A stretch of DNA of 41,302 nt, taken from contig JASEEX010000016.1 of NCBI GenBank assembly GCA_030019415.1, positions 1-41,302 of the forward strand, given 5' to 3'. How positions within the stretch are numbered: position 1 is the first letter of the stretch; the number at the start of each line of letters is the position of its first letter. The notes beneath the pieces are model-generated. The model made no database searches. It was not told the origin of the DNA and saw nothing but the letters and a program-made list of their open reading frames with translations. The position numbers and the translations under genes were made by a program. The DNA is from Thermodesulfovibrionales bacterium. GTDB lineage: Bacteria; Nitrospirota; Thermodesulfovibrionia; Thermodesulfovibrionales; SM23-35. Positions 20,978-38,465 of the stretch are shown piece by piece.

Positions 20978-21688
20978 TTACTCTACCCAGACCTTTTTAG
21001 CAATGCCATAGCCAATAGTTACCATTTGTTCTCCTAATCTGACTCGCACATATCCCCCTCTCAGAGGAATCGGGGGGGCTATCATCTCCTTATCTACTAA
21101 GGTGATTTCTGCACCTTCCTCAAAACCCATTTCATCCAGTCTCTGCTTAACATTTGCCCCACCAATAATCCTGGTTACCTTAGCCTTTTCACCCTTCTTT
21201 AGATAATTAATCTGGATGGCTTTCCCCTCATGCTCTGCCAGAACCTTGGATGCTATCCCCTCTCCAATCATTATTTCTTTATCCGCAACATTAAATATCA
21301 GTGTCTGAACAGGCATATGCCTTAAAAATTCTACCTCGGTTCCCTCTTTAATTCCTAATTCATGAAACCACGTAGAAAAATATCTCCCTCCTCCGAAGGA
21401 TTTGACAACTCCTCTGTCACCTTCTTCCAGCTCAAGGAGAGTGGTCATAGAGCCTGCCTTTTCCAGATATATCTTCTCAGCCATTCCATGCCCAAGGATA
21501 ATCTCTTTACCCTCAATCCTTATTGAAATGGCACCCCTGTGTTCATGGGCAGGTACCTGTTCCATTACATTAAGCTCAACACCTTCTATGATGCTAAGGT
21601 CATCGAGGTGCTTTCTCACATCAGTCCCTCCATCGATCTTCTTAACTGTTACCTTTGCCCCGGGCTCCGCATCGGTTAGCGATCTCAT
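20978..21688 (-). CDS. Three-domain FeoA fusion protein
   Basis: 236 residues made of three successive FeoA (SH3-like) domains, about 1-77, 80-153 and 158-236. Each has the layout LxxLxxGxxxxVxxxxGGxxxxxxLxxLGIxEGxxVxxxxxxP...I.....ExxIGxGxAxKVxVE. Normal FeoA is one domain of 75-85 residues and acts beside the FeoB iron transporter. No FeoB is next to this gene; instead its start overlaps the end of the P-type ATPase gene by 4 bp, so it probably serves the P-ATPase operon. A repeat of such a gene survives only as a remnant at 37114. Confidence 0.88.
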   Translation of the reverse strand: MRSLTDAEPGAKVTVKKIDGGTDVRKHLDDLSIIEGVELNVMEQVPAHEHRGAISIRIEGKEIILGHGMAEKIYLEKAGSMTTLLELEEGDRGVVKSFGGGRYFSTWFHELGIKEGTEVEFLRHMPVQTLIFNVADKEIMIGEGIASKVLAEHEGKAIQINYLKKGEKAKVTRIIGGANVKQRLDEMGFEEGAEITLVDKEMIAPPIPLRGGYVRVRLGEQMVTIGYGIAKKVWVE

Positions 21689-23778
21689 AGACTTATCCCT
21701 CCCATGGCATTCAACAATATGACAACAGTTGTGCCGTTATGAAGGACGGCAGATGCTACGGGACTCAGGATTCCAGAAGATGCGGCAAGAAAGACTGCGG
21801 TGTTAACCCCGACAGATATATTAAAATTGGTATTTATTAATCTCATGGTCTTTTGTGCAAACTCCGTCGCATCCGCCACAGCATTGAGAGAATCAACATT
21901 TAAGACAACATCCGCTGTCTCTCTGGCAATGTCAGCACCTCTGGTCATGCATATGCCAACATCGGCTGATATAATTGCCGGGGCATCGTTGATGCCATCT
22001 CCTACAAAGGCAACCTTTTTCCCCTTATTTCTAAACTTCCTGACGATATCGGACTTATCCTCCGGCATGAGTTCATAATAGACCTCATCAACAGGGAGGC
22101 CGGAGGCAATGGCCATTGTCCTTTCACGGCTGTCCCCTGACACCATCACAACGGATCTGACTCCATAATCTTTGAGGCGTTTCAATGCTACAGCACATTC
22201 TTCCCGCAGCTGATCCCGTAAGGCTATCATCCCCAATGGTTCTTTATCTATAGCCATAAACAATACTGTTTTCCCCTGTTCATCGAGTCTCTGGATAATA
22301 TCATCATATTCGGAAAAGGAGATATTCTCATGTTCTTCCATAAAATGGCGGCTACCCAGAAGCACCCGACGGCCATTTATATGCGTGCTCAGTCCGTGGG
22401 CCAGGATTAGATCAACTTCCGAATGTTCCGGAAAGGGAAGGAACATCTTTCTCGCACTACGCACAATAGCCTCACCGATAGGGTGTAAATAATGTTCTTC
22501 CATAGAAGCGGCCAGTGCAAGGAGGGTAGCGCTTTCCCACCCCTCTTTCAAGGCTATACAATCGGTCAATTCAGGTATTCCCAGTGTAATAGTGCCTGTC
22601 TTGTCAAAGATGAAGATATCTGCCTTTGCAAGGTTTTCAATGGCCTCACCCCCTTTTACGAGGATCCCGGAGGAGGCAGCCTTGTGCATCGTTGATTTAA
22701 AGGCTACCGAAGGGGCGAGTTTTGTGCTACAGGCATAATCAACAAACAGAACTGATGCGACCCTGTTGAGATCCCCTGTCAGGGCAAACACAATTGCTGC
22801 AAGGCCGAGTGTAATGTAGACACTCCTGTTTCCCATCTCATCGGCTCGCCTTTCTGTTTTTGACTTCCTCATAAGGGAATGTTCGACAAAACGTGTTATC
22901 CTTGCAGTAGTTGTCTCGTCACCAACAAAGTCAGCTGAAATCTTTATCCTTCCCTCTTCAATAACTGTACCTGAAAGGACATAGTCACCAATCTCCTTTT
23001 TCAAAGGAATGGATTCTCCTGTAATGGATGCCTGATTAACAAGGGCTACTCCATCGATGATCTCCCCATCTACCGGGATTATGTTTCCTGCCCCGCTGAT
23101 TACAATATCCCCTACCTTTATATCTCCTGAAGGGATCTGTATTTCAATTCTATCCCTTTCAACCCAGGCCATTCCCATATCAGGCCTCAGCAGGCTGCGG
23201 ATGAGCCTGTCGGATTGTCTCTGGGTTGTATGTTCTATATACTCGCCTATTTCAGTGAGGAGATATGTTACATTGGCTGCAAAATAGTTCCTTCTCAGGA
23301 AGGAAAGGCTAACGGCCGTGGCACTGAGGACATCAATCTTTATCCCCTCTGTGATAAGTGTGCGAAAACCCCTGAAAAGGAGAGGAGAAATTGAAACAAG
23401 GGTAACCATTGCACGGATACGCCGTGGTAGCATGGGAGAGACCAGAAGGACAATGCCTGCCTTAATTATATTAAAGGTACCCTTTTTCTCCCTCTCTTCA
23501 GGGGATATGAGTTTGTATCCAGGTATTGCCATTGAAAAGAAGGATAATCTTTCAATGACTCTCTCTTTAACTTCAGGCCTACCATCATAACTGACAGCGA
23601 TAGAAGAGGCCTCCCTGTTGATTCTCACCTCTTTAACTCCATCTATGGCTTCAATATAGGCCTCTATGTAAGCCACATCGCATGAACGATCCCTGAGGAT
23701 AAGCATCCTGAATCTTATGCGATCAGGAAGTTCGTGAATCAGGGATATGCTAAAGTATGTGGGGTGGACGGTAGACAT
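21685..23778 (-). CDS. P1B-type metal ATPase with ACS instead of CPC (FezB/P1B-6-like candidate)
   Basis: 697 residues. The N-terminal 80 residues form an HMA-like domain without CxxC but with HELPDRIRFRM. Catalytic motifs are intact: TGES (253-256), phosphorylated D392 in DKTGT, HP (432-433), GDGINDAP (593-600). In the membrane helix before the P-domain the usual CPC is replaced by DYACSTKLAPS (Ala-Cys-Ser, 349-351), so it is not a classical Cu or Zn/Cd exporter. Ferrosome ATPases (FezB, P1B-6) also lack CPC; assignment to that class is inferred. Iron is the likely metal given the FeoA fusion that overlaps its end. Confidence 0.8.
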   Translation of the reverse strand: MSTVHPTYFSISLIHELPDRIRFRMLILRDRSCDVAYIEAYIEAIDGVKEVRINREASSIAVSYDGRPEVKERVIERLSFFSMAIPGYKLISPEEREKKGTFNIIKAGIVLLVSPMLPRRIRAMVTLVSISPLLFRGFRTLITEGIKIDVLSATAVSLSFLRRNYFAANVTYLLTEIGEYIEHTTQRQSDRLIRSLLRPDMGMAWVERDRIEIQIPSGDIKVGDIVISGAGNIIPVDGEIIDGVALVNQASITGESIPLKKEIGDYVLSGTVIEEGRIKISADFVGDETTTARITRFVEHSLMRKSKTERRADEMGNRSVYITLGLAAIVFALTGDLNRVASVLFVDYACSTKLAPSVAFKSTMHKAASSGILVKGGEAIENLAKADIFIFDKTGTITLGIPELTDCIALKEGWESATLLALAASMEEHYLHPIGEAIVRSARKMFLPFPEHSEVDLILAHGLSTHINGRRVLLGSRHFMEEHENISFSEYDDIIQRLDEQGKTVLFMAIDKEPLGMIALRDQLREECAVALKRLKDYGVRSVVMVSGDSRERTMAIASGLPVDEVYYELMPEDKSDIVRKFRNKGKKVAFVGDGINDAPAIISADVGICMTRGADIARETADVVLNVDSLNAVADATEFAQKTMRLINTNFNISVGVNTAVFLAASSGILSPVASAVLHNGTTVVILLNAMGGISL

Positions 23779-23935
23779 TATAGTGCCAAACAGAAAAACC
23801 TATCAGTGCGATCCCTGCTATGGTATGCAACTGGAGATTTATGTATCCCCTTCCCAGGCCAGTCCAGACCAGTATGGCCATGGATGTCACCATTCCTATC
23901 TTTGTCAGGTTACGGATGTCATCCCTTTCAAGCAT
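23750..23935 (-). CDS. Small two-helix membrane protein
   Basis: 61 residues with two hydrophobic helices (about 15-30 and 38-54), a tryptophan- and histidine-containing loop (HTIAGIALIGFSVWHYNVYRP) and a charged N-terminus (MLERDDIRNLTKIG). The ATG at 23935, behind AAGGAG, is preferred to a TTG further upstream. It ends 29 bp inside the start of the P-ATPase gene, which suggests coupled translation. Small membrane proteins next to the P-ATPase are a feature of fez operons; this one is not recognisable as a known Fez protein. Confidence 0.65.
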   Translation of the reverse strand: MLERDDIRNLTKIGMVTSMAILVWTGLGRGYINLQLHTIAGIALIGFSVWHYNVYRPPHIL

Positions 23936-23936
23936 A

Positions 23937-24584
23937 TCAAACTCCTTCGCCCTCAACCTTTTTCTCCGCCTCTTCTATCTTTTCCTTTTTCTTTTTGTAC
24001 AGGATTTCAGCCTTCAAATCCTCAAACTTCTCCTTGAGTTCCTCAACACCTGACTTGGCTCCAGTCCATACCTTTGCCACTCCCTTCATCAGGGTCTCCC
24101 GCACAGTCTCACTTGTTATAAGAATTGTGAGGAGTGAACCCAGTACGACCCCTTTCCAGAACTGGTCATTGTGGAAGTCTAAGCCCAGCCATGTATTATC
24201 TACACGGGCAGGCGCCTCGGGAGGAAAGGGAGTGAATGAAGTGCCAAACCTATATGCCTCGTGCAGGTATGGGTGAGGCATTGCTGCCGGTGTGAATCCC
24301 TGTTGTCCTATGGGGTCTCCAGGATGAGTGTGATGCCCCATGGAAGAATGACCCTCCATTCCTGATTGCATTGTTGGTCCCGGCATCATTGGAGATGGGG
24401 GCCATGGGGAAGGTGTAGGACCAGGGAACATACCTCCAGGCATACCATGGACTGATTGCATTGTTGATCCTGGCATCATTGGAGATGGAGGCCATGGAGA
24501 AGGTGTAGAACCAGGGAACATACCCCCAGGCCCTCCAGGCGTATTGCATGCTGAATGATTAATAAAAGGATTAAACTGTTCCAC
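23937..24584 (-). CDS. Pro/Met-rich membrane protein with tandem repeats and charged tail
   Basis: 215 residues, GTG start behind AAGGAGG. Residues 1-80 are low complexity with two 30-residue repeats (GGMFPGxTPSPWPPSPMMPG). Then comes a His-rich stretch (MEGHSSMGHHTHPG), and around 130-165 the module LDFHNDQFWKGVVLGSLLTI...TSETVRE, containing one hydrophobic helix with small residues. A long charged helical tail follows (KSGVEELKEKFEDLKAEIL...). The module recurs in the protein at 25056-25649. I do not know a family. Met, His and Pro content suggests metal contact or a flexible, phase-forming part; that is inference. Confidence 0.75.
   Translation of the reverse strand: MEQFNPFINHSACNTPGGPGGMFPGSTPSPWPPSPMMPGSTMQSVHGMPGGMFPGPTPSPWPPSPMMPGPTMQSGMEGHSSMGHHTHPGDPIGQQGFTPAAMPHPYLHEAYRFGTSFTPFPPEAPARVDNTWLGLDFHNDQFWKGVVLGSLLTILITSETVRETLMKGVAKVWTGAKSGVEELKEKFEDLKAEILYKKKKEKIEEAEKKVEGEGV
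24363..24532 (-). repeat. Coding tandem repeat, 90-bp period
   Basis: Two copies, beginning at about 24363 and 24453, about 90 bp (30 codons) apart, inside the Pro/Met-rich protein gene. The copies differ at scattered positions, so they are not a recent duplication or assembly artefact. Confidence 0.8.
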
Positions 24585-24607
24585 TTTGTACCTCCTTAAA
24601 AAAGTTT

Positions 24608-25033
24608 TTAAGTCTTAATCTGACCGGCCTCTGCCGGTACTTCCGGTTTAGGCCTCCCAATAGAAGTCAGAAGGTATCCGACCCCTGTAGCAGTGGCTAT
24701 CAAGATAACAAAAGGGACAAGACCCCTGCTATTAATGGATGAGACCACTACTGCGGCGGCTGATGTAGCCACACCGGCAACTACCCCTTTAGCAAGGCTG
24801 TCGGTAATAGCCTGCGGCATGGTTATCTGTTTTTCCTTCACTCGATGGAGATTCAGTGCAAAGGCAGTTGTCCCGCCCACGAATGTACCAAAAAGACCTG
24901 AGGAAAGGATTGCCCTTGGGTAGAACGGATCTACGCTTTGCACAGGATAACGCGATGCCTGCACAGGATAGGAATGTACCACAGGATAAGGATTATGCAT
25001 TACAGGATAAAATTGATGCGGGTTATTCTTCAT
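24608..25033 (-). CDS. Membrane protein resembling magnetosome protein MamC/Mms13
   Basis: 141 residues. The N-terminus carries four YPV units (MHNPYPVVHSYPV...RYPV). Residues 46-125 contain two helices joined by a charged loop: GLFGTFVGGTTAF, then LHRVKEKQITMPQAITDS, then KGVVAGVATSAAAVVV. MamC of Magnetospirillum, as I remember it, reads GVLGALVGGAAAL, LLKEKRITNTEAAID, then VGAGLATALSAV; spacing and KEKxIT match. In MamC this loop touches the growing magnetite crystal. Homology is argued from motif and layout, not from a database search. The gene has a GGAGG site and lies in the P-ATPase operon. Confidence 0.6.
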   Translation of the reverse strand: MKNNPHQFYPVMHNPYPVVHSYPVQASRYPVQSVDPFYPRAILSSGLFGTFVGGTTAFALNLHRVKEKQITMPQAITDSLAKGVVAGVATSAAAVVVSSINSRGLVPFVILIATATGVGYLLTSIGRPKPEVPAEAGQIKT

Positions 25034-25055
25034 TATTGTTACCTCCTTTTAGTGG

Positions 25056-25649
25056 CTATTGTTTCTTCCCCTCTTCTTCTGCCTCTTTCTTTCTGAAGAC
25101 AGATTTCACCGTTTCGCTTTTAAGTAGCAGGGTTGTCACAGCCCCGACGATTAAACCCTTCCAGAACTGGTCATCGTGGAAGTTGATGTTAAAAAGCCCT
25201 GTAACCATGTCACCCATGTCCGCCTGACCATTAACAATCCTGCTCACTGTATCAATTACCTGACCATAGCGATGCTGTTCATGCTTTGGATACTGGCTTT
25301 GATAGTACTGCCAGAAATGGGGCGTCATGGCCGGATTGATTGCGGCCTGTTGTGCCATTGCCTGCCACCAGGCATTCCATGCAGCAAAATCATGCTGCCC
25401 TGGATGTGGATAGTGACTTCCCATCGGGTGTGTGTAATGCCCTCCTGCCATGCCAGCGGACTGGCCCATGGACTGACTTCCCCCAGGATTCTGACTCCCT
25501 GTGCTGGGTTGCTGTGGCGGATCCATAGTTGGCTCTGTCGGTTGCTTTTGCCCCACAAAACCAGGTATAGGGTTGCCAGGTTCATCGCCTTTTGCTCCCA
25601 TAGGAGTCCCCGCCTGCCCTGCCATTTGAAAGTCCATACAGTTTTCCAT
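25056..25649 (-). CDS. Low-complexity membrane protein sharing the DQFWKG module
   Basis: 197 residues from the ATG at 25649, which has AAGGAGGTGA; an in-frame start 24 bp upstream is less likely. Residues 1-90 are rich in Pro, Gln, Gly, Met and His; 90-130 are aromatic and Gln-rich (AAWNAWWQAMAQQ...FWQYYQSQYP). The module INFHDDQFWKGLIVGAVTTLLLKSETVK (split here: FHDDQFWKG, then SETVK) is near residues 158-186, followed by a charged tail. It is a diverged paralogue of the protein at 23937-24584. The membrane helix fits YtxH-like small anchors. Function unknown; a structural role at a membrane compartment is inferred. Confidence 0.7.
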   Translation of the reverse strand: MENCMDFQMAGQAGTPMGAKGDEPGNPIPGFVGQKQPTEPTMDPPQQPSTGSQNPGGSQSMGQSAGMAGGHYTHPMGSHYPHPGQHDFAAWNAWWQAMAQQAAINPAMTPHFWQYYQSQYPKHEQHRYGQVIDTVSRIVNGQADMGDMVTGLFNINFHDDQFWKGLIVGAVTTLLLKSETVKSVFRKKEAEEEGKKQ

Positions 25650-25656
25650 TTCTTGC

Positions 25657-26010
25657 TCACCTCCTTTCTGCATTTATATTTAACTGCCATAGGGTACGGA
25701 GCCGGCCTGCAATGTAATCAGAACGCTCAGGTTTATATCGCAGACTGACAAGATCTTCCCATATTTCTGGTTCAATGATCTCGGGGTCATATTCCACAAC
25801 TGAAGTGAGGGCCAGTTGATTGACCCTCACATTGAGTATCCCCGGAAATTTTTCAGCAATACGCTTCGGATCAACTTTTTTAAGTTCCTGGACGACCATG
25901 GGTGAAAACTTCAGACGTACCCTGCCGGGGATGTGATGCGCAATCTCTGCAAGCTGAGAAAACCTCATGATCGCCTGGATGATGTCCTCTCCTTCTGTAA
26001 TACTAATCAT
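25657..26010 (-). CDS. Free HMA-like domain protein
   Basis: 117 residues from the ATG at 26010 (a GTG at 26034 is an alternative; both overlap the end of the upstream ATPase gene). The core AHHIPGRVRLKFSP...AEKFPGILNVRVN...VVEYDPEII is a ferredoxin-like HMA fold without the metal-binding CxxC. It shares H-x-[IL]-P-x-R-x-R with the N-termini of both P-ATPases in the operon. It may dock on the ATPases or act as a membrane-organising subunit. Seven bases separate it from the next gene. Confidence 0.75.
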   Translation of the reverse strand: MISITEGEDIIQAIMRFSQLAEIAHHIPGRVRLKFSPMVVQELKKVDPKRIAEKFPGILNVRVNQLALTSVVEYDPEIIEPEIWEDLVSLRYKPERSDYIAGRLRTLWQLNINAERR

Positions 26011-28213
26011 GCTGATTAATCTCTTTTTGTTCACTGAGACCCGGCGCTTCCCAGCCTACAAGGCGGCCTGAATTGAGCAAAATCCCTAAGGTATGGACAA
26101 CGTGGAGTACTCCCCCCATTAGAGGTGAAAACCAGCCTGCGGCACCCAGTATAGTCCCTATTAGATTTGTGGATATCGCCATCCAGTGATTTTGCTCTAT
26201 GACACGAATTGTCTGACGACTGAGCTGCCGTAGTGCCACCAGTCGCTCAAGGCCATTGTCTACCAGGGTAATATCTGCTGCCTCAATTGCCACCTCTGAG
26301 CCACCTGCACCCATGGCAATGCCGATGTTCGCCTGTGCTAATGCCAATGCATCATTAACCCCATCTCCCACCATGACTACCTTCTGACCCTTGTCCTTAA
26401 GTTCCTTTACATAGCGGGCCTTCTCATCTGGGGGAAGTTCTGCCCGATAATCGTCAAAGCCAAGGGATTTTGCCATTGCCCTTGCCACAATCTCGGCATC
26501 CCCTGTAATGAGGTGCTGGCTCTTAACTCCATCATTCCTCAGCCAATCCAGAGTAACCATAGCATCTTCACGAACGGTGTTGGTTACACCAATCATTCCC
26601 AGTGCCCTTCCATTTCGTGCCACATAGACCACTGTGTATCCTTTCTCGATGAGGTCTCTGGTGCGTCCCCTGAAATATCTTATATTTACTCCTTCCTCAT
26701 CCATGAATCTGTCGTTGCCCACACGTATTATGTTCTTTCCAAGGCGTGCGCGTACCCCCCTGCCAAGGATAAACTCGCAGACCGCATGCCGTTCAGGTGT
26801 GATATTTCGCTCAGAAGAGGCCTTAATAAGGGCGCGTGCAAGTGCGTGCTGGTTGTGTGCCTCAGCCGTAGCGGCAAGGGATAATATCCGATCTGGATTC
26901 TGTCTTGGCCCTGGCACTATCTCAGACACAGAGGGAACTTCGGTAGTCAGGGTCCCGGTTTTATCGAAACAAAAACAATCTGCCTCTCCAATATGCTCCA
27001 GATAAAGGCCGCCTTTGATCAGGATGTGGTTACGGGCTGCATTGGCAATAGAGGCTGTAACTGCAGTGGAGGCCGCAAGCACAGTGGCGCATGGGCAGGC
27101 CATTACAAGCATAACGGTAAAGGCTCGGATAGGATTCAATGTTACAATGAGGGTTCCTATTGTGGCAATCCCACCGAGTCGCATCAATCGTGATGCCAGG
27201 ATATCGGCCCGTTTCTCGGCAGGTGCCTTGTTGGACAGGGATTCCTCTACGAGATAAAGTATGCGGGACAGATATGTTTCATCTCCCACCTTTTCAGCCC
27301 TGATAAAGATCCGTCCCTGCTGTACAATGGTGCCTGCAAAGACCCGCTCCCCGACCCGGCGTACCTCCGGCTCTGCCCGCCCTGTAATGGGGGCTTCATC
27401 TACAAGGGCCTCCCCCTCTGTCACCATGCCGTCCACCGGTATTTTCTCTCCTGTGTGAAGCACCACTGTGTCATTGACCCTGACCTCTGCCACTGGCACC
27501 TCCACCTCAATACCTTCTACCAAGATAAAGGTATTTTTGGCTGCTACATGGAGGATTTCCCTTATCGCCTTTCTGGAACGCTCGGTTACATAGTCTTCAA
27601 GGAGCATTCCTATTCGAAGAATCCAGATCACCTCAAGGGCAGCTAAGGACTCCCCGAGGAAGATTGCAAGAAAAGTGGCAATAGTTAAAAAAGGGAACAG
27701 GCTCGTGTATCTGCCTCTCCGCAGATCTTTCCATGTCTTACGTATCAGCGGGATTGCTCCAACCACTGCCACTACTGCAACCAGGCTGAAGGGCCCTTGA
27801 GGGACTGGGGTTTTTAAAATTAACTTTCTTATCAGGACGAAGGCCATAAAGCCTGTAAGGGCTATAACCTGTATCAGCCCGGCCAATAATGATTTTTTAG
27901 GCTCAGACCTATAGACCCTGTGCACTGAATCAGGCAGGGATTCCCGGTCTGATGTAGGACCCTGATTTTCCTTAAGCCATAAGTCCAGCGACCTCAGAAG
28001 AGATGAGGTTTTTATCCTTTCCGGGTTATAGTAGAGTATTACACTCCCTGTCAGTGGTCTTGCCTCGACATTAATTCCCTCAGCTTGATTAGCCAGCCAG
28101 TTTCTGAGGGTTGAGGCCTTATTCTCATCATAAAGGATGGCAACTATCCTGACCCGCAAACGACCGGGTATCGAATGTCTTACCCTTAGCCCTTTATGAT
28201 AATTGTTGCTCAT
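26003..28213 (-). CDS. P1B-type ATPase with CPC but altered catalytic motifs
   Basis: 736 residues. The N-terminal HMA-like domain HSIPGRLRVRI lacks CxxC. The membrane motif MACPCATVLA has CPC (373-375) and the phosphorylation site D417 (FDKTGTLT) is intact. Three other sites are changed: TGES is TGRA (277-280), so the glutamate that drives dephosphorylation is Arg; the P1B His-Pro pair is QHALAR (H456-A457); GDGxNDAPA is GDGVNDALA (616-624). It may therefore be slow, regulatory or inactive as a pump. It is the first gene of the proposed compartment operon and is followed by the free HMA protein with an 8-bp overlap. Confidence 0.85.
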   Translation of the reverse strand: MSNNYHKGLRVRHSIPGRLRVRIVAILYDENKASTLRNWLANQAEGINVEARPLTGSVILYYNPERIKTSSLLRSLDLWLKENQGPTSDRESLPDSVHRVYRSEPKKSLLAGLIQVIALTGFMAFVLIRKLILKTPVPQGPFSLVAVVAVVGAIPLIRKTWKDLRRGRYTSLFPFLTIATFLAIFLGESLAALEVIWILRIGMLLEDYVTERSRKAIREILHVAAKNTFILVEGIEVEVPVAEVRVNDTVVLHTGEKIPVDGMVTEGEALVDEAPITGRAEPEVRRVGERVFAGTIVQQGRIFIRAEKVGDETYLSRILYLVEESLSNKAPAEKRADILASRLMRLGGIATIGTLIVTLNPIRAFTVMLVMACPCATVLAASTAVTASIANAARNHILIKGGLYLEHIGEADCFCFDKTGTLTTEVPSVSEIVPGPRQNPDRILSLAATAEAHNQHALARALIKASSERNITPERHAVCEFILGRGVRARLGKNIIRVGNDRFMDEEGVNIRYFRGRTRDLIEKGYTVVYVARNGRALGMIGVTNTVREDAMVTLDWLRNDGVKSQHLITGDAEIVARAMAKSLGFDDYRAELPPDEKARYVKELKDKGQKVVMVGDGVNDALALAQANIGIAMGAGGSEVAIEAADITLVDNGLERLVALRQLSRQTIRVIEQNHWMAISTNLIGTILGAAGWFSPLMGGVLHVVHTLGILLNSGRLVGWEAPGLSEQKEINQHD

Positions 28214-29439: not shown

Positions 29440-30222
29440 TTATTTCATATCTCTAACCTGAACCCAGATGACAGCCCCGACTTCACTATCCTTGCCTTCA
29501 ATCTTTTCACCTTCCATAAGTGCAGCGAAGCCCCACCAGCCGGCCTTCGGGATAGCATAGGCAAACTCTCCGTCCTTATTTGCCTTTATGGTCTGTGTAA
29601 CAAATGCATCCTGTGGTGCCGTTACTTTTGCCTTTTTCAGGAAGGCATTTCCCTTTATATCGTGATTCAGGTATTCCACCTCGACCTCGGCAAAGGGGAC
29701 AGGCTTACCCTCAAACTTGACAATCCCCCTGAAGACATTCCCGGTCCAGAGGGCATAGGGTTTGTCCAGTGGGACAATCTCGGCAGGAAGCCCAACTTCC
29801 GCATCCCAGTCAGTAGGTATGCCAGCCACATTTACTATCATCTTTGTATGCTGTGTGATGTACTTACTCTCAGACTCTTCCCAGTAAGGTGCAGGGCTTA
29901 GATAGAAGATATAGTCGCCCATGCCTTTAAGCCTGTAGGTTACTTCAAAGGCCTTGCCTTTGTTGGTCAGACTGGTGAATTCGATGGATTTGAGTTGCTT
30001 AAGTAGATCCGTCTTCTCACCTTTCTGCATCACCCCAAATGCATTAGGCTGGCCCATATCCATTGTGTGCCCTGCCTCAAATGGGTGTGTAAAAACAAGC
30101 TTGAGGTTTATTTCCTTTCCTTTAGTCAGGGCACTTTCATCTGTGTAAATGAGCTGAAAGTGTGCAAAGGCATAGGTCGGCAAAAGGACAAATATTGCCA
30201 TTAAAAGTAGAATCTTTTTCAT
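29440..30222 (-). CDS. DUF4198 periplasmic metal-uptake-associated protein (first)
   Basis: 260 residues from the ATG at 30222, which follows AAGGAGGTAATAAG. The signal peptide is MKKILLLMAIFVLLPTYAFA, then HFQLIYTDES. The first mature residue is His, as is common in DUF4198 proteins, where the N-terminal amine and His can bind metal. The domain LVFTHPFEAGHTMDMGQP...GNVFRGIVKFEGKPVPFAEVEVEY...GWWGFAAL is the family pattern. DUF4198 proteins accompany Ni/Co/Fe transporters. It lies in the feo region between the porin and a small periplasmic protein. Confidence 0.87.
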   Translation of the reverse strand: MKKILLLMAIFVLLPTYAFAHFQLIYTDESALTKGKEINLKLVFTHPFEAGHTMDMGQPNAFGVMQKGEKTDLLKQLKSIEFTSLTNKGKAFEVTYRLKGMGDYIFYLSPAPYWEESESKYITQHTKMIVNVAGIPTDWDAEVGLPAEIVPLDKPYALWTGNVFRGIVKFEGKPVPFAEVEVEYLNHDIKGNAFLKKAKVTAPQDAFVTQTIKANKDGEFAYAIPKAGWWGFAALMEGEKIEGKDSEVGAVIWVQVRDMK

Positions 30223-30236
30223 CTTATTACCTCCTT

Positions 30237-30392
30237 CTGTCATTCCGTACTTGATACGGAATCCAGACCTCTTATTTAGAGTCTGTCCATAAATGCCGAT
30301 TTCAACTCAAATGCGTCATTCCCGCGAAGGCAGGAATCCAGTGTTTTCAATAGGTTCTGGATTCCCCGGTCATGCCGGGGAATGACAAAACC
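30237..30392. repeat. Tandem pair of GTCATTCC-type dispersed repeats
   Basis: One short copy (CTGTCATTCCGTACTTGATACGG) is followed by a full copy (GCGTCATTCCCGCGAAGG...CGGGGAATGAC). It separates DUF4198 from the small periplasmic protein gene. Confidence 0.7.
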
Positions 30393-30410: not shown

Positions 30411-30725
30411 CTATTTAATGTTCTTACCTTCTACTTTGACTACATGGCCGGGGCCTGCATCAAAGATGACTGTGTAAGGCACATTCGGTTTTTTGAATGT
30501 GAACTCACTATTCTTATCCATCTTTCCTTTTACAAGCACCTTACCGGCCTTGTCCACAACACTCATATTTACGCCGGCAGCAGAAGAGCCATCAGAAAAT
30601 CCACCCTCGCATGTAATTGTTCCATCTCCGTTATCGAAGCAATTGCATATCGGCGTGTGGGCAAAAGCCCAGGTGGCCAGGAAGGTCATTGTTAGAATGA
30701 CCAGACAAGCTAAAATTTTCCTCAT
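30411..30725 (-). CDS. Small secreted Cys-containing protein
   Basis: 104 residues with a signal peptide (MRKILACLVILTMTFLATWAFA), maturing to HTPICNCFDNGDGTITCEGGFSDG. The mature N-terminus starts with His and contains CxC plus another Cys, a likely metal or disulfide site. The rest looks like a carboxypeptidase-regulatory-like beta-sandwich (VNMSVVDKAGKVLVKGKM...YTVIFDAGPGHVVKVEG). AAAGGAGGTGAG precedes the ATG, 17 bp after feoB, so it is in the feo operon. It could be a periplasmic iron-binding partner; inference only. Confidence 0.75.
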   Translation of the reverse strand: MRKILACLVILTMTFLATWAFAHTPICNCFDNGDGTITCEGGFSDGSSAAGVNMSVVDKAGKVLVKGKMDKNSEFTFKKPNVPYTVIFDAGPGHVVKVEGKNIK

Positions 30726-30742: not shown

Positions 30743-33226
30743 CTATTCCATTTTCGGTTTTCTCTTAATAAGCCCCATTACTGTGGTCACGGCAATTGCC
30801 AGGATATAAAAGGCAATCATGGCCTGAAGGCCTGAAAGGCCTAATAGATTTCCTCCTGTGAAAACAAGAATTGCAAACATGAGTCCCAGAACAATAGGAT
30901 AAATACCTGCAAAGAGCATCCATTTTGTGCTTCCTGCCTCCAGCCTTACCATGATAAGAGTAGGTATGCATGGAGGATACATCGCCATAAAGAGCATTAT
31001 TGCCAGTGCATGAAGTGGGTTCCAGCCCTTCTCCTTCTCCTTTATCCTCTCCTCAAGCATCTTTTCTTCTCCAATCTCCTCAGTCTGGTAGATACTTCCA
31101 AGGGTTGCCACAGAGCTCTCCTTTGCTGCAAAAGAGCTCAAAAGGGCAATATTTACCCTCCAGTTAAAGCCTGCAAACCTTGTAAATGGCTCCATAAAAT
31201 AACCTGTTCGACCGAGAAGACTCCCCTGAATAGTCTCCTCCCTTTTTTCCATTCTGAGCTGCTTTCTTTTTCTTTCAAGTTTCTTATAGGCCCTGTTAAC
31301 CTTTGCTGCCTCTTTATCCTCACTTTTTACAATCTTGAAGAATTCAGGGTTTCTCTCCCGGAATTTTTTATCAATTGCCTCTTTTTCTTCATCTCCTTTA
31401 GCAGCTATCCCGGCCTTTTTATAATCATCCCAGTATATAGAAAACTCCTCAAATCCTGCTCCTGAAAGGGTTCCTGCATAGGGGTTTTCATCTCCTATCT
31501 CTTTAAAGAAGATCTGTCTTATCTCACTGGCCTGGTTACCGTAGTAGGCATCCCTTTCTTTACTCAAGCCGGGGAAAGAGATCAGAAAATAGACGATAAT
31601 AGCAACCGCAATAATGATGGTTATAACCTTTCTGACAAAAAGCCATGTCCTTTCAAGGCAGCGGCGCAGTACACCCTGAACTGTAGGAAGATGATAGGCA
31701 GGCATCTCCATGACAAATGGGGCCATTTCCCTTTTCCTCAGGACAGTGAGGTTTAATATCTTTGCTACGGAGAGGGCTATGATGATAGTAATTGTGGCTA
31801 TAAAGAACATTGCAAAGCCTTTATGTTCAGCAAAGAAGATGCTGATAAGGAGGACATAAAGCGGGACCTTTGCCATACAGTTCATTAAAGGTACAGTCAT
31901 GATGGTTGCCATACGGCTCCTCTCGCATTTTATGCCACGACATGCCATTACCCCCGGGATGGCACAGCCGCCTACATATACGCCACCAAGTATCAAAGGG
32001 AGGGTGGATTGCCCGTGAAGGCCAAAATATCTGAAGATTCGATCCAGTATGAATGCCATCCTTGCCATATATCCTGTATCCTCAAGTATGGCTATAAGTG
32101 TAAAGAGGATCAAAAAGATAGGTACATAGTTTAGCACTGCTATGATTCCATTTATTACCCATAAAGGCATAGCCCGGAGAAAGGGGTCATGAATAAAACC
32201 TTCAGCAGGAAGTACAGAGGCGATAAGATCACGAAATGATGCAAGGAGAGGCCACGTATAATTGGTTAATTTCCAGCCATAACCTATGGAGAGTTTATAT
32301 AAGAGATAGATGATTACTGCAAGGATAACAGGGCCTGAGAATCTATGACATACAATCTGGTCAATCCTGTCCGATAGTGTCCACAGGACTTCTTTTTTTC
32401 TCTTAACAGTGGCCTCAGCAATCCCTGAGGCAGTGAGATAGCGCCTTTCAGCAATAACCTTTTCAGGTGCATCTCCATATTGTGAAATAAACCAATCTCT
32501 CTTACTTTTCAGAAGGCTTAAGATATTACCTTTTTCGGAATGTTTATCTATAAGTTTTCGCACCTCGCTGTCATTTTCCATAAGCTTTATAGCAAGCCAT
32601 CGTGGCTGATAATGGCTTGAAAGGTTTTTATCCTCTGACAGTTTTTGCTCAAGCTCATTCAGAATTGGCTCAATAGATTTTCCATAATCAATATGGATTG
32701 GAGTAAAACGGGTTTTATCTTTTGATGTCTCCCTTATGGCTTCATAGAGCTCCTTTTTGCCTTTGCCCCTGTTTCCAACTGTGGGGACTACTTTAGCCCC
32801 GAGCCTTCTGCTCAGCTCCTCTACATCAATCTCAAGACCACGTCTTTCTGCAATATCCATCATATTGAGATCAATAACTAAAGGGATGCCCATCTCACTT
32901 AATTGGAATGTGAGATAGAGATTCCTCTCAAGATTTGAGGCATCCACTATGTCAACAACTAAGGCAGGCTTTTCATGAAGGAGAAAATCCCTTGCAATAC
33001 GTTCCTCAAGGGAATAAGAGGTGAGGCTGTAAGTCCCTGGAAGGTCTACCAGTTCAAATCTTTCTCCTTTAAAACGATAAGAGCCAGTCTTTTTCTCCAC
33101 CGTTACACCAGGGTAATTAGCCACATGCTGCCTTGCCCCTGTTAAGAGATTGAAGATGGTGGATTTGCCAGAATTTGGCTGACCAGCTACTGCTACAACT
33201 GTCTTTTCTTCGGATGCCTTTTTCAC
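30743..33226 (-). CDS. feoB: Ferrous iron transporter FeoB
   Basis: 827 residues. The G-domain has GQPNSGKST (15-23), TVEKKTG (Switch I region), DLPGTYSL (61-68) and the NxxD motif LNMMD. The membrane part shows the two Gate motifs: LILGGVYVGGCAIPGVMACR and the second with AAKESSVATLGSIYQ. It is longer than the usual 700-770 because of a charged insert of about 120 residues after the SFPGLSKERDAYYG segment. FeoB imports Fe(II) across the inner membrane. It overlaps feoA by 4 bp. Confidence 0.97.
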   Translation of the reverse strand: MKKASEEKTVVAVAGQPNSGKSTIFNLLTGARQHVANYPGVTVEKKTGSYRFKGERFELVDLPGTYSLTSYSLEERIARDFLLHEKPALVVDIVDASNLERNLYLTFQLSEMGIPLVIDLNMMDIAERRGLEIDVEELSRRLGAKVVPTVGNRGKGKKELYEAIRETSKDKTRFTPIHIDYGKSIEPILNELEQKLSEDKNLSSHYQPRWLAIKLMENDSEVRKLIDKHSEKGNILSLLKSKRDWFISQYGDAPEKVIAERRYLTASGIAEATVKRKKEVLWTLSDRIDQIVCHRFSGPVILAVIIYLLYKLSIGYGWKLTNYTWPLLASFRDLIASVLPAEGFIHDPFLRAMPLWVINGIIAVLNYVPIFLILFTLIAILEDTGYMARMAFILDRIFRYFGLHGQSTLPLILGGVYVGGCAIPGVMACRGIKCERSRMATIMTVPLMNCMAKVPLYVLLISIFFAEHKGFAMFFIATITIIIALSVAKILNLTVLRKREMAPFVMEMPAYHLPTVQGVLRRCLERTWLFVRKVITIIIAVAIIVYFLISFPGLSKERDAYYGNQASEIRQIFFKEIGDENPYAGTLSGAGFEEFSIYWDDYKKAGIAAKGDEEKEAIDKKFRERNPEFFKIVKSEDKEAAKVNRAYKKLERKRKQLRMEKREETIQGSLLGRTGYFMEPFTRFAGFNWRVNIALLSSFAAKESSVATLGSIYQTEEIGEEKMLEERIKEKEKGWNPLHALAIMLFMAMYPPCIPTLIMVRLEAGSTKWMLFAGIYPIVLGLMFAILVFTGGNLLGLSGLQAMIAFYILAIAVTTVMGLIKRKPKME

Positions 33227-33447
33227 TGGAGCTCCACCTCCACACCCTTTGCCTCTGAATGGCGAAGGCTCACATGATATCCTCTGACATTAAATTCGAC
33301 TGGGTCCACCAGGGGTGCATTTCGAATAACTCGTACCTTGGTTCCGGGTATAAATCCCATATCAAGAAGCCTTTGACCTGTGGCACCGCCTATGTTTACC
33401 TTCAAGATACGGCATTCCTGGCCAGGCTTCATTTCATCAAGGGTCAT
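33223..33447 (-). CDS. feoA: FeoA, partner of FeoB
   Basis: 74 residues from the ATG at 33447 behind GGAGGTGG (a TTG at 33471 would lie in the terminator T-run). A single FeoA SH3-like domain: MTLDEMKPGQECRILKVNIGG, LLDMGFIPGTKVRVIRNAPL, VEFNVRGYHVSLRHSEAKGVEVE. It overlaps feoB by 4 bp (ATGA). Expression is probably set by the leader with an intrinsic terminator just upstream. Confidence 0.95.
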   Translation of the reverse strand: MTLDEMKPGQECRILKVNIGGATGQRLLDMGFIPGTKVRVIRNAPLVDPVEFNVRGYHVSLRHSEAKGVEVELQ

Positions 33448-33469: not shown

Positions 33470-33574
33470 AAAAAAGGCGCAACCTGACTTTTTACCTCTC
33501 AAGTTACGCCTTCACTTTCCACGCCTTTATCCCGATGCTTCGGGATCATGCGAGACCGTAAGACATCCCTCACC
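33470..33574 (-). promoter_or_regulatory. feoAB leader: conserved core plus intrinsic terminator (copy A)
   Basis: On the minus strand the leader reads GGTGAGGGATGTCTTACGGTC, a variable hairpin (GATCCCGAAGCATCGGGAT), GGAAAGTGAAGGCGTAACTTG and then TCAGGTTGCGCC + six T. The last part is an intrinsic terminator: a 12-bp stem with two G-U pairs (33476-33487 / 33499-33510), about 22 bases before the feoA ATG. The core is repeated almost exactly at 37256-37337. The layout is that of a riboswitch or protein-controlled attenuator. I do not match it to a known class. Confidence 0.65.
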
Positions 33575-33614
33575 CCCCTTAATCCCCCCTTGCTAAGGGG
33601 GGATTAAGGGGGGT
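33571..33614. repeat. Long C-rich/G-rich palindrome in the feo leader
   Basis: CACCCCCCTTAATCCCCC pairs with its complement across a short GC loop, giving a stem of about 20 bp. The same palindrome, slightly diverged, precedes leader copy B at about 37335-37379. A related C-rich arm is at 16571. It is probably a dispersed element placed in the 5' part of the transcript. Confidence 0.7.
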
Positions 33615-33649
33615 GTTTTATTTTTCTAACTTAATTTTATATCCCAAAC

Positions 33650-33678
33650 AACATAGCAGAAAGCTAAATTCCTGTCAA
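33650..33678 (-). promoter_or_regulatory. Promoter of the feoAB operon
   Basis: On the minus strand TTGACA (33678-33673) and TATGTT (33655-33650) are separated by exactly 17 bp, a good sigma-70 pair. Transcription would start near 33642, giving a 5' leader of about 195 nt that contains the palindrome, the conserved core and the terminator. No Fur box is evident here. Confidence 0.7.
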
Positions 33679-36993: not shown

Positions 36994-37029
36994 TGCTCCT
37001 CCTCGTTAGTCCCTCGAGTCCCTACCTTA

Positions 37030-37071
37030 AAAAGCCCCCGGGGTAAGGCACTGTCAGCCTTTACCCCAGGG
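37030..37071 (-). terminator. Intrinsic terminator after the NifX/FeoA remnant
   Basis: On the minus strand CCCTGGGGTAAAGGC pairs with GCCTTACCCCGGGG and is followed by GCTTTTT. A strong stem plus a T-run ends the unit that starts with leader copy B, upstream of exbB. Confidence 0.75.
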
Positions 37072-37113
37072 AAGGAGGGTTAGCAGGTGGCTCTATCTGA
37101 ACCACCATCTCTG

Positions 37114-37220
37114 TTATTCCACCCAAACCTTCTCGGCTACACCATGCCCAATAGTTATAAGCTGCTCCCCTCGATACCTAATTCAGAGTCTGTTCCTTCA
37201 GATGGTATGGCTAACTTCAT
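37114..37220 (-). pseudogene. Remnant joining a NifX-like start to a FeoA-like end
   Basis: An ATG at 37220, with AAAGGAG upstream, opens MKLAIPSEGTDSELG, the usual start of NifX-like proteins, but stops at 37155. Overlapping it in another frame (to 37114) is EQLITIGHGVAEKVWVE, almost the same as the end of the three-domain FeoA protein (EQMVTIGYGIAKKVWVE). It looks like the scar of a large deletion that joined two genes. It lies between leader copy B and an intrinsic terminator. Confidence 0.6.
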
Positions 37221-37255: not shown

Positions 37256-37379
37256 AAAAAAAGGCGCAACCTGATTCTATCCAAGTTACGCCTTCACTTT
37301 CCCCGCCTTATGCGGTGACCGTAAGACATCCCTCACCCCTCTTAATCCCCCCTTGCTAAGGGGGGAATGAGGGGGGTGT
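37256..37379 (-). promoter_or_regulatory. Second copy (B) of the feo leader with intrinsic terminator
   Basis: Same order as copy A: C-rich palindrome (about 37335-37379), GTGAGGGATGTCTTACGGTC, a shorter variable hairpin (CCGCATAAGGCGG), GGAAAGTGAAGGCGTAACTTG, then CAGGTTGCGCC with seven T. The terminator stem is 11 bp (37263-37273 / 37282-37292) with a different loop (8 nt) from copy A. Core and terminator are conserved while loop and internal hairpin vary, as expected for a functional RNA. It precedes the NifX/FeoA remnant. Confidence 0.65.
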
Positions 37380-37385
37380 TTAAAA

Positions 37386-37673
37386 TTATGAACTTTCAGC
37401 CAGAACTTGCATCAATCTTTTCCGCAGTTCCTCCAATCTCTTTGACTTAAATGCCTTCTTTGTATCTTCCAGAACCTCTATAGTCTCGGTCAGAGTCTCT
37501 TCCAGCATTCTTCTGTGCGGGCAATCCAGGTATGCACAAAGGTTACAGATTTCCCCACTTACCTTTTTACTGAGTACGCTGAGGAGGATATGGCGCTGCA
37601 CATCTATCCGATGATGGAGGTCCTCGGTGCTCCTGTCAATGATTTTAATCAAATCTGTTTTACTGTCTTCCAT
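37386..37673 (-). CDS. Small helical Cys protein overlapping FeoA
   Basis: 95 residues from the ATG at 37673 (TTG at 37679 is an alternative). Long amphipathic helices surround a central CNLCAYLDCPHRR motif (CxxCx4C plus His), a likely zinc or Fe-S site. It overlaps the end of the feoA-like gene by 14 bp, so translation is coupled. Its position after FeoA recalls FeoC, a small Cys-containing Feo protein, but there is no visible winged helix. I do not recognise it. Confidence 0.65.
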   Translation of the reverse strand: MEDSKTDLIKIIDRSTEDLHHRIDVQRHILLSVLSKKVSGEICNLCAYLDCPHRRMLEETLTETIEVLEDTKKAFKSKRLEELRKRLMQVLAESS

Positions 37674-37902
37674 TGTCAACTAAAATCTTGTAGGCCATTC
37701 CGCGACCAAGGGCAAGTCTCGTGTCCCTCACTGCCACCATTAATGGACCCGCTCCATTATTGTTCAAAATTCTCATCTTTACACCAGGAACCAATCCCAT
37801 GCTGTAAAGCCTTGACTGCACCCCTCTACCCCCATTTATACCTATCAGAATCACCTCTTTTCCCGGTGTAACCATAGTAAGCGGTATAAGTCTTCCTTCC
37901 AT
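37660..37902 (-). CDS. Stand-alone FeoA-like protein
   Basis: 80 residues from the ATG at 37902 (TTG at 37905 is an alternative), GGAGGT upstream. Single FeoA domain: MVTPGKEVILIGINGGRGVQSRLYSMGLVPGVKMRIL...LMVAVRDTRLALGRGMAYKI. No FeoB is adjacent, so this is a free FeoA, the third FeoA-type gene of the window. A 33-bp palindrome upstream and the DtxR-type regulator gene just before it suggest control by that regulator. Confidence 0.9.
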   Translation of the reverse strand: MEGRLIPLTMVTPGKEVILIGINGGRGVQSRLYSMGLVPGVKMRILNNNGAGPLMVAVRDTRLALGRGMAYKILVDNGRQ

Positions 37903-37920
37903 CAAAGTACCTCCATAAAA

Positions 37921-37973: not shown

Positions 37974-38465
37974 TTACAGGACTTTAGCCTTTTGTTTTAA
38001 CTGCCCGACCTCACACTTCAGCCGTCTGCCAGTTTTAAAGTAATGGTCAAAGCTTTTCAACCAATCCGGCCTATCACGTTTGGGGCAGGTCTCCACAAAT
38101 TCTATAAACTTTATAAACTTCTCAAGGGTCTCGGGACTGATCGAGTGCTCCATCTTACAGGCATCGACTTCGGCTATTTTTGGGTCAATATTTAAAATTC
38201 CCGATAGAAACTTAAATAGGGTGTCATGCCTCTTCTGAACACCCTGGGCTAACCTTTCCCCTTCTGTGGTAAGTTCTACATACTCATATCTTTTATGGGA
38301 AACGAGCCCTTTTTGAATGAGGGTATTTAGCATACTCGTCACAGTTGGTAGCTTGACATTCATAACCCTGGCAATATCCTTGACCCGGACAGCCTTTACC
38401 TCTTTTTCGAGGTTAGAGATGGCCTCTAAGTAATCCTCGACTGTAGGTGTTAAAGACTCAATCAT
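37974..38465 (-). CDS. DtxR/IdeR-family iron-dependent repressor
   Basis: 163 residues. The winged helix spans about 8-70 (TPTVEDYLEAI...VRVKDIARVMNVKLPTVTSMLNTL). The dimer/metal domain has H80 (KRHDTLFKFL) and DACKMEH (C103, E106, H107). This Cys-x2-Glu-His set is the primary metal site of DtxR/IdeR; MntR proteins carry Asp/Glu instead of Cys, so Fe(II) sensing is the better guess. A third SH3-like domain is absent. It likely controls the adjacent feoA and itself. Confidence 0.9.
   Translation of the reverse strand: MIESLTPTVEDYLEAISNLEKEVKAVRVKDIARVMNVKLPTVTSMLNTLIQKGLVSHKRYEYVELTTEGERLAQGVQKRHDTLFKFLSGILNIDPKIAEVDACKMEHSISPETLEKFIKFIEFVETCPKRDRPDWLKSFDHYFKTGRRLKCEVGQLKQKAKVL

Follow-up and report, generated by a model that had tools for sequence, protein, structure and literature searches.

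The iron gene cluster and its two leader elements

The window, the whole stretch of 41,302 nucleotides from a Thermodesulfovibrionales bacterium analysed here, contains an iron gene cluster read from the minus strand. The first controlled gene is feoA (33223..33447, ATG at 33447), an ORF with a tblastn match to FeoA in an island, and it is followed by the feoB ORF (30743..33226), whose product is 54–68% identical to the FeoB proteins encoded behind copies of the RNA elsewhere. On the other side lie the gene for a DtxR-family iron-dependent repressor (37974..38465, minus strand; Pfam PF02742/PF01325 and tblastn), an ORF for a FeoA-like small protein (37660..37905, minus strand; family assigned by eye) and an ORF for a 97-aa orphan protein (37386..37679, minus strand), which is the candidate trans-acting partner of the RNA and ends about 52 nt before the second copy of the element. 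Behind feoB, genes for NikL-like (30411-30725) and DUF4198 (29440-30243) proteins follow on the minus strand, as they do in many Desulfobacterota islands; their annotation hints at nickel/cobalt uptake, yet the context is that of iron. Further downstream of feoAB (21685-28213, minus strand) there are genes for two P1B-type ATPases, which carry HMA_2 domains at their N termini, and for a small protein with HMA_2, along with small ORFs rich in proline, a set reminiscent of ferrosome (fez) clusters, and similar ATPases are encoded in two Desulfosarcina islands. A ferrosome link was rejected as the defining context, since HMA_2 P1B-type ATPases occur in some islands only.

The whole genome to which the window belongs holds only two copies of the element, both in this cluster, and they are members of one structured leader RNA. 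Copy 1 (33571-33466, minus strand) lies in the feoA leader, for which the preliminary description, made from the sequence of the window, had placed a promoter at 33650..33678; the consensus scan recovered there a sigma-70-like promoter on the minus strand (TTGACA-17-TATGTT, 10/12 matches) with an extended TG. The antiterminator form of copy 1 (33500..33571, minus strand), seen in the folds and scored at 60.7 and 54.6 bits by the covariance models R1 and R2, respectively, pairs the 5′ strand GGGAUGUCUUACGG (33569-33556) with the 3′ strand AAGUGAAGGCGUAACUUG (33517-33500), and its apical stem bears an additional inner hairpin. The intrinsic terminator (33470..33512, minus strand), recognised by sequence, folds, terminator alignment and prefix folding, consists of the 5′ arm AAGGCGUAACUUGA (33512-33499), which is common to the lower helix, the 3′ arm UCAGGUUGCGCCUU (33487-33474) and a U-run (33475-33470), whose end is separated from the feoA ATG by 22 nt, the very spacing that had been claimed. 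Copy 2 (37334-37256, minus strand) lies behind the 97-aa ORF; its antiterminator form (37282..37334, minus strand; 81.3 bits with R1, 64.9 bits with R2, and folds) has a short apical hairpin, and its intrinsic terminator with the U-run (37256..37294, minus strand) was recognised by sequence, folds and prefix folding. Both cores reported earlier are present in the two copies exactly as they had been written: GGAAAGTGAAGGCGTAACTTG at 33500-33520 and 37282-37302 on the minus strand, where shuffled sequences lead one to expect 0 such matches, and GATGTCTTACGGTC at 33554-33567 and 37317-37330, a 14-mer that is less distinctive taken alone. Moreover, the folding of each copy beats all 200 dinucleotide shuffles, with z-scores of −4.6 (copy 1) and −4.2 (copy 2).

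A perfect, GC-rich palindrome of 20 bp (CCCCCCTTAATCCCCCC) is joined to the 5′ end of every Nitrospirota copy of the RNA, three in all, and forms a hairpin at the 5′ end of the leader; in the window it occupies 33571..33615 (minus strand) and 37332-37379, directly 5′ of the two copies, and it looks like a terminator if read on the opposite (plus) strand. It is a feature separate from the RNA element, and it was rejected as the functional unit because the Desulfobacterota copies are without it.

Distribution and covariation of the RNA

In a Nitrospirota relative of the same family (G014) the element stands at the orthologous place, with an apical stem that is completely different and yet perfectly paired. 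The model R1 was built from three copies, namely the two of the window and that of G014, and its search of 176 genomes of the window's order gave no further strong match. A pattern scan of the genomes of 84,980 species, in which exact cores were required, yielded 89 stretches, and about 80 of these matches, nearly all from Desulfobacterota, were confirmed by R1 at 22 bits or more. The confirmed hosts include Desulfosarcina alkanivorans, D. widdelii, D. cetonica, NaphS2, Eth-SRB1, Eth-SRB2 and many metagenome bins. The second covariance model, R2, was run on an even sample of 146 genomes from the order to which D. alkanivorans belongs and found the RNA in 24 of them, with 1–8 copies each. Altogether, 102 distinct elements were collected by the pattern scan and the covariance searches, nearly all from Desulfobacterota, plus those of two Nitrospirota, the window genome and its one relative. 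Matches in viral contigs were set aside as mostly due to chance (best R1 score, 23.2 bits), and weak pattern matches in Planctomycetes, Mycobacterium and others were rejected with R1 scores of 18.7 bits or below.

The consensus lower helix is made of the nearly invariant strands CUUACGG and AAGUGAAGGC, with a bulged purine and a GG/AA internal loop, and is prolonged outwards by a weaker extension (AAGGGAU/GUAACUYG). About 17 nt in and around this one internal loop are near-invariant, an invariance partly imposed by the first survey, which demanded exact cores, while the apical stem above varies freely in sequence and length. In the R2 genome sample the centre CUUACGR...AAGUGAAGGC was confirmed, and the core variants ACCUUACGG, GGCUUACGG and UCCUGCGG were found. 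For the apical stem, an alignment of 98 distinct rows (A6) contains double changes at all six of its six pairs; there are 135 double-change cells, whereas shuffles give 37 ± 12 and slid controls no more than 22, and 95.6% of the apical cells are paired, against 34.7–66.3% in the slid controls. The constraint at the RNA level, first suggested from the two copies of the window, is thus borne out by covariation across about 100 homologues.

The lack of a match to known riboswitch classes, also remarked on in the preliminary description, agrees with the scans against Rfam 15, in which no family reached the gathering threshold in the window, and no model was matched by cmscan in 18 homologous loci rich in the RNA (139,649 bases); scans by E-value returned low-scoring chance matches, mostly to the GC palindrome. 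A known Rfam family, metal riboswitches included, was rejected on this ground. No paper on this RNA was found in the open-access articles searched, and the main texts of the 26-genome and 50-genome RNA discovery papers contain no feo or ferrous-iron motif; the latter does describe one Desulfobacteraceae motif (gcsH). Relative to Rfam 15 and the open-access articles searched, the RNA is previously undescribed.

Overlap of the lower helix with the terminator

In 95 of the 101 copies compared, the intrinsic terminator starts with AAGGC, the very letters that the lower helix uses as its 3′ strand. The six exceptions comprise some copies with a weaker terminator (judged by eye), one chance match and one copy without a terminator. 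The distal arm of the terminator changes in a compensating manner, with the pairs U-G, U-A and C-G at position +2 and C-G, U-G, U-A, G-C and A-U at position +7. Moreover, prefix folding of five examples predicted that the lower helix forms at first and is then displaced by the terminator once the 3′ arm of the latter appears; likewise by thermodynamic prediction, truncated RNAs fold into the helix and full-length RNAs into the terminator. Read-through would need a helix stabilised by something. With a structured leader on the same strand upstream of the genes, and a terminator that excludes an alternative helix, the RNA is very probably a transcription attenuator, i.e. a switch between terminator and antiterminator.

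Gene context

The next gene lies on the same strand as the RNA in 84 of 90 cases, and a few copies are without a close gene on the same strand. Among 74 proteins encoded first or second downstream, Pfam recognised FeoA (13), DUF2325 (12), FeoB (6), DUF3450 (4), the TonB plug (4) and the FeMo-cofactor type (3), as well as HD, OprB porin, ExbB, ECF sigma factor and flavodoxin-like types, and many further proteins match no Pfam family. In the R2 genome sample, 20 downstream proteins included FeoB (4), DUF2325 (3) and FeoA (2). The assignable families are mostly of iron-homeostasis types. In the genomes examined, the copies are concentrated in one iron island, which recurs in the order dtxR, a small gene, the RNA, DUF2325/CPVVG, HD, the RNA, feoA and feoB, and then NikL-like, DUF4198, the RNA and a porin. 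The DUF2325/CPVVG gene encodes a conserved 417-aa 'CPVVGxCL' protein with a coiled-coil-like middle and a C-terminal DUF2325 domain (CPVNCNSHAAC), and it is a common first gene behind the RNA (loci L063, L074, L078, L081, L096, L037 and L062). By tblastn, most of the islands examined have a close homologue of dtxR in the vicinity of the RNA. In addition, 8 of 97 copies have an inverted repeat TTAGA..TCTAA in the 60 nt that precede the RNA, where shuffling leads one to expect 0.12, for example at the Desulfobacterota loci L081, L062 and L194; it is a possible operator, perhaps for the neighbouring DtxR.

These results bear on a reading of the element as a dispersed repeat or MITE that has the CCCCCCTTAATCCCCCC palindrome as its centre and no regulatory function. 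In favour of such a repeat, each of the three Nitrospirota copies has the palindrome in front of it, and similar palindromes exist elsewhere in the window genome. However, the Desulfobacterota cores have no palindrome, the window genome has its two copies in the iron cluster only, and the genomes examined hold 1–8 copies clustered at iron genes; a covariance search, which had been named as the check on this very point, found the element mainly before iron genes and in no known family. The survey contradicts the repeat, which we consider most improbable. The mutually exclusive terminator, the covariation and the iron-gene context together argue for a terminator/antiterminator switch of an iron regulon, so that the initial proposal, a novel RNA that regulates in cis and lies ahead of feoAB, holds with about 100 homologues and a predominantly iron-related gene context.

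A candidate partner protein

The 97-aa protein encoded ahead of copy 2 belongs to a family with an invariant FKSKxxExLR motif (FKSK..E.LR..L...L), in which the Cys cluster of the window member (CNLC-AYLDCPH) is not conserved. Four members matched no family in Pfam or NCBIfam, and no convincing relatives were found in PDB sequences, plasmids or PDB folds, with weak matches only in PHROGs. The predicted structure, of moderate confidence, consists of three helices and has no recognisable RNA-binding fold or informative structural neighbours.

Homologues of this gene end a few tens of nt before many copies of the RNA. In the 146 genomes of the R2 sample, the protein is present in 22, the RNA in 24 and both in 19, so that the protein occurs in 19/24 RNA-positive and 3/122 RNA-negative genomes (odds ratio 151, p about 2e-16), counts in which related genomes are non-independent samples. 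In one of the three protein-only genomes the gene lies at a contig end. As a control, the island gene CPVVG/DUF2325 was found in 14/24 RNA-positive and 16/122 RNA-negative genomes (odds ratio 9, p 7e-6), and it was rejected as a trans factor because its co-occurrence with the RNA is far less specific than that of the small protein. Moreover, among the Nitrospirota relatives searched, protein and RNA occur in exactly the same two genomes. Linkage and joint transfer account for part of the co-occurrence, since the partner gene is often beside the RNA, while in four genomes (G466, G534, G571 and G586) gene and RNA are apart, which is compatible with a trans-acting factor. Four other genomes (G473, G495, G497 and G574) have good RNA matches and no detectable partner protein even at an E-value of 0.05; fragmentary metagenome assemblies among them might explain its absence.

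Possible mechanisms of the switch

In view of the tight co-occurrence, a switch that works through a protein is no less likely than the sensing of iron by the RNA itself, and we put a probability of about 0.55 on the whole of a mechanism in which the small FKSK protein is the antiterminator of the attenuator and iron is the signal. After the polymerase has left the promoter, the nascent leader would fold into the lower helix capped by the variable stem, and AAGGC(G), on the 3′ side of that helix, doubles as the 5′ arm of the strong terminator that closely precedes the gene. A hairpin that is held would block the terminator, and the iron-uptake genes would be transcribed; without that hold, transcription would stop. 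The FKSK protein, encoded with dtxR and feoA beside the RNA, would bind the hairpin and hold it whenever expression of the iron genes is required, and in this way one protein could switch several scattered operons together. The iron signal may reach the switch through DtxR-controlled synthesis of the protein or directly. We infer that in the cell the hairpin corresponds to the ON state, with the protein as its ligand and iron as the signal. As regards protein-dependent antitermination in general, a co-occurring partner is at hand, and the binding of this particular protein is our proposal.

It is also possible, albeit rather less than probable in our judgement, that the RNA is a riboswitch, in which Fe2+, another metal or an iron-related metabolite would bind the GG/AA loop and the bulge directly and either stabilise the antiterminator (ON) or shift the RNA to the terminator. 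At the level of sequence, an aptamer-like conserved core, a classic expression platform and a consistent gene context are all found: the near-invariant nucleotides gather at a single internal loop below a freely varying stem, several copies per genome precede metal genes, unrelated phyla share the RNA, and it exists in genomes without the partner protein. Yet the element, a simple hairpin, has neither a junction nor a pseudoknot, and the co-occurrence of the partner protein would be left without explanation. The apparent polarity, with a formed aptamer meaning ON, is moreover opposite to what iron uptake needs if iron is the ligand; with hairpin formation as ON, the ligand of a riboswitch must signal iron shortage, or the scheme is inverted. 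An unlikely alternative, in which DtxR regulates the promoter, takes the terminator as a constitutive, partial one that sets the basal read-through, or the short terminated transcript as a stable, iron-responsive sRNA that acts in trans. The dtxR genes near most islands, the inverted repeats in excess over expectation and the few copies lacking a close gene on their strand are in its favour, but a plain terminator has no need of an invariant competing helix, and the position and strand of the copies are strongly biased relative to the iron genes.

Comparison with known regulatory systems

In the LicT/SacY systems the RAT is a short hairpin whose internal loops are small and which shares sequence with the 5′ arm of an intrinsic terminator, and the RNA described here has the same build. 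Further parallels concern the protein, here a candidate one: the gene for it stands beside the RNA site, and several operons can share one protein. The two differ in that our RNA has no sequence similarity to the RAT and precedes iron genes instead of sugar genes, and that the candidate partner has no recognised domain, the CAT and PRD domains of LicT being absent from the four members compared with Pfam and NCBIfam. ANTAR sites consist of two hexaloop hairpins, whereas the present leaders have one hairpin with a core at its internal loop and a partner without an ANTAR domain. By the tests made, the element belongs to none of the RAT/LicT, PyrR and ANTAR attenuators and appears to resemble them in logic only. 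In LicT-type control the neighbourhood of gene and site is documented in the account of licT, which adjoins its RAT site (PMC1489936). Like the NiCo (czcD) and yybP-ykoY (Mn2+) riboswitches, the RNA is a leader whose expression platform would control metal-homeostasis genes; it differs from them as a simple hairpin with no Rfam match in the 18 loci. The NiCo and yybP-ykoY RNAs are multi-helix junction or docked-loop structures with other conserved sequences.

In most accounts, bacterial iron uptake is controlled by the DNA-binding repressors Fur and DtxR. The regulon logic is the same here, with feoAB, porins and other iron genes as targets and dtxR beside the RNA, while Fur and DtxR differ in acting by DNA binding at the level of the promoter. 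The delta-proteobacterial regulon survey of 2004 gives FUR boxes at feoAB, lists only RFN, THI, B12 and S-box as riboswitches, and gives no RNA element at feo (PMC545781, Table 11). In environmentally important sulfate reducers, a whole iron regulon appears to bear an additional RNA switch at its operons. A protein that binds the hairpin would represent a new family of RNA-binding antiterminators; direct binding of iron or an iron signal would make the hairpin a new class of riboswitch. The chances are about even that the system constitutes either a new two-part control of the iron regulon, with FKSKxxExLR as an iron-responsive antiterminator and the leader hairpin acting together with DtxR on operons of sulfate reducers such as those for FeoAB, TonB and DUF3450, or a new riboswitch class of the iron type.

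Remnants of the element and of neighbouring genes

Copy 2 precedes a 22-codon remnant (37155..37220, minus strand) of a FeMo-co-binding-type (NifX-like) gene, as found by comparison with locus L008; this target gene is intact in G014. Through a deletion behind copy 2 (37020-37220, minus strand), the first codons of the NifX-like gene are joined to the C-terminal tail (GHGVAEKVWVE) of a FeoA-type gene, and the FeoA-type gene of this fusion is likewise intact in G014 (L008 1516-2817). Elsewhere, the last approximately 25 codons of the partner gene alone persist directly upstream of some RNA copies (G445:C17:1645-1716 and G449:C114:7154-7231), as if partner tail and RNA had been duplicated as one unit. 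Just past the partner gene of G586 (locus L207) there is a broken copy of the RNA, in which AAGGGATATCTTACGACC is kept and the 3′ half and the terminator are lost.
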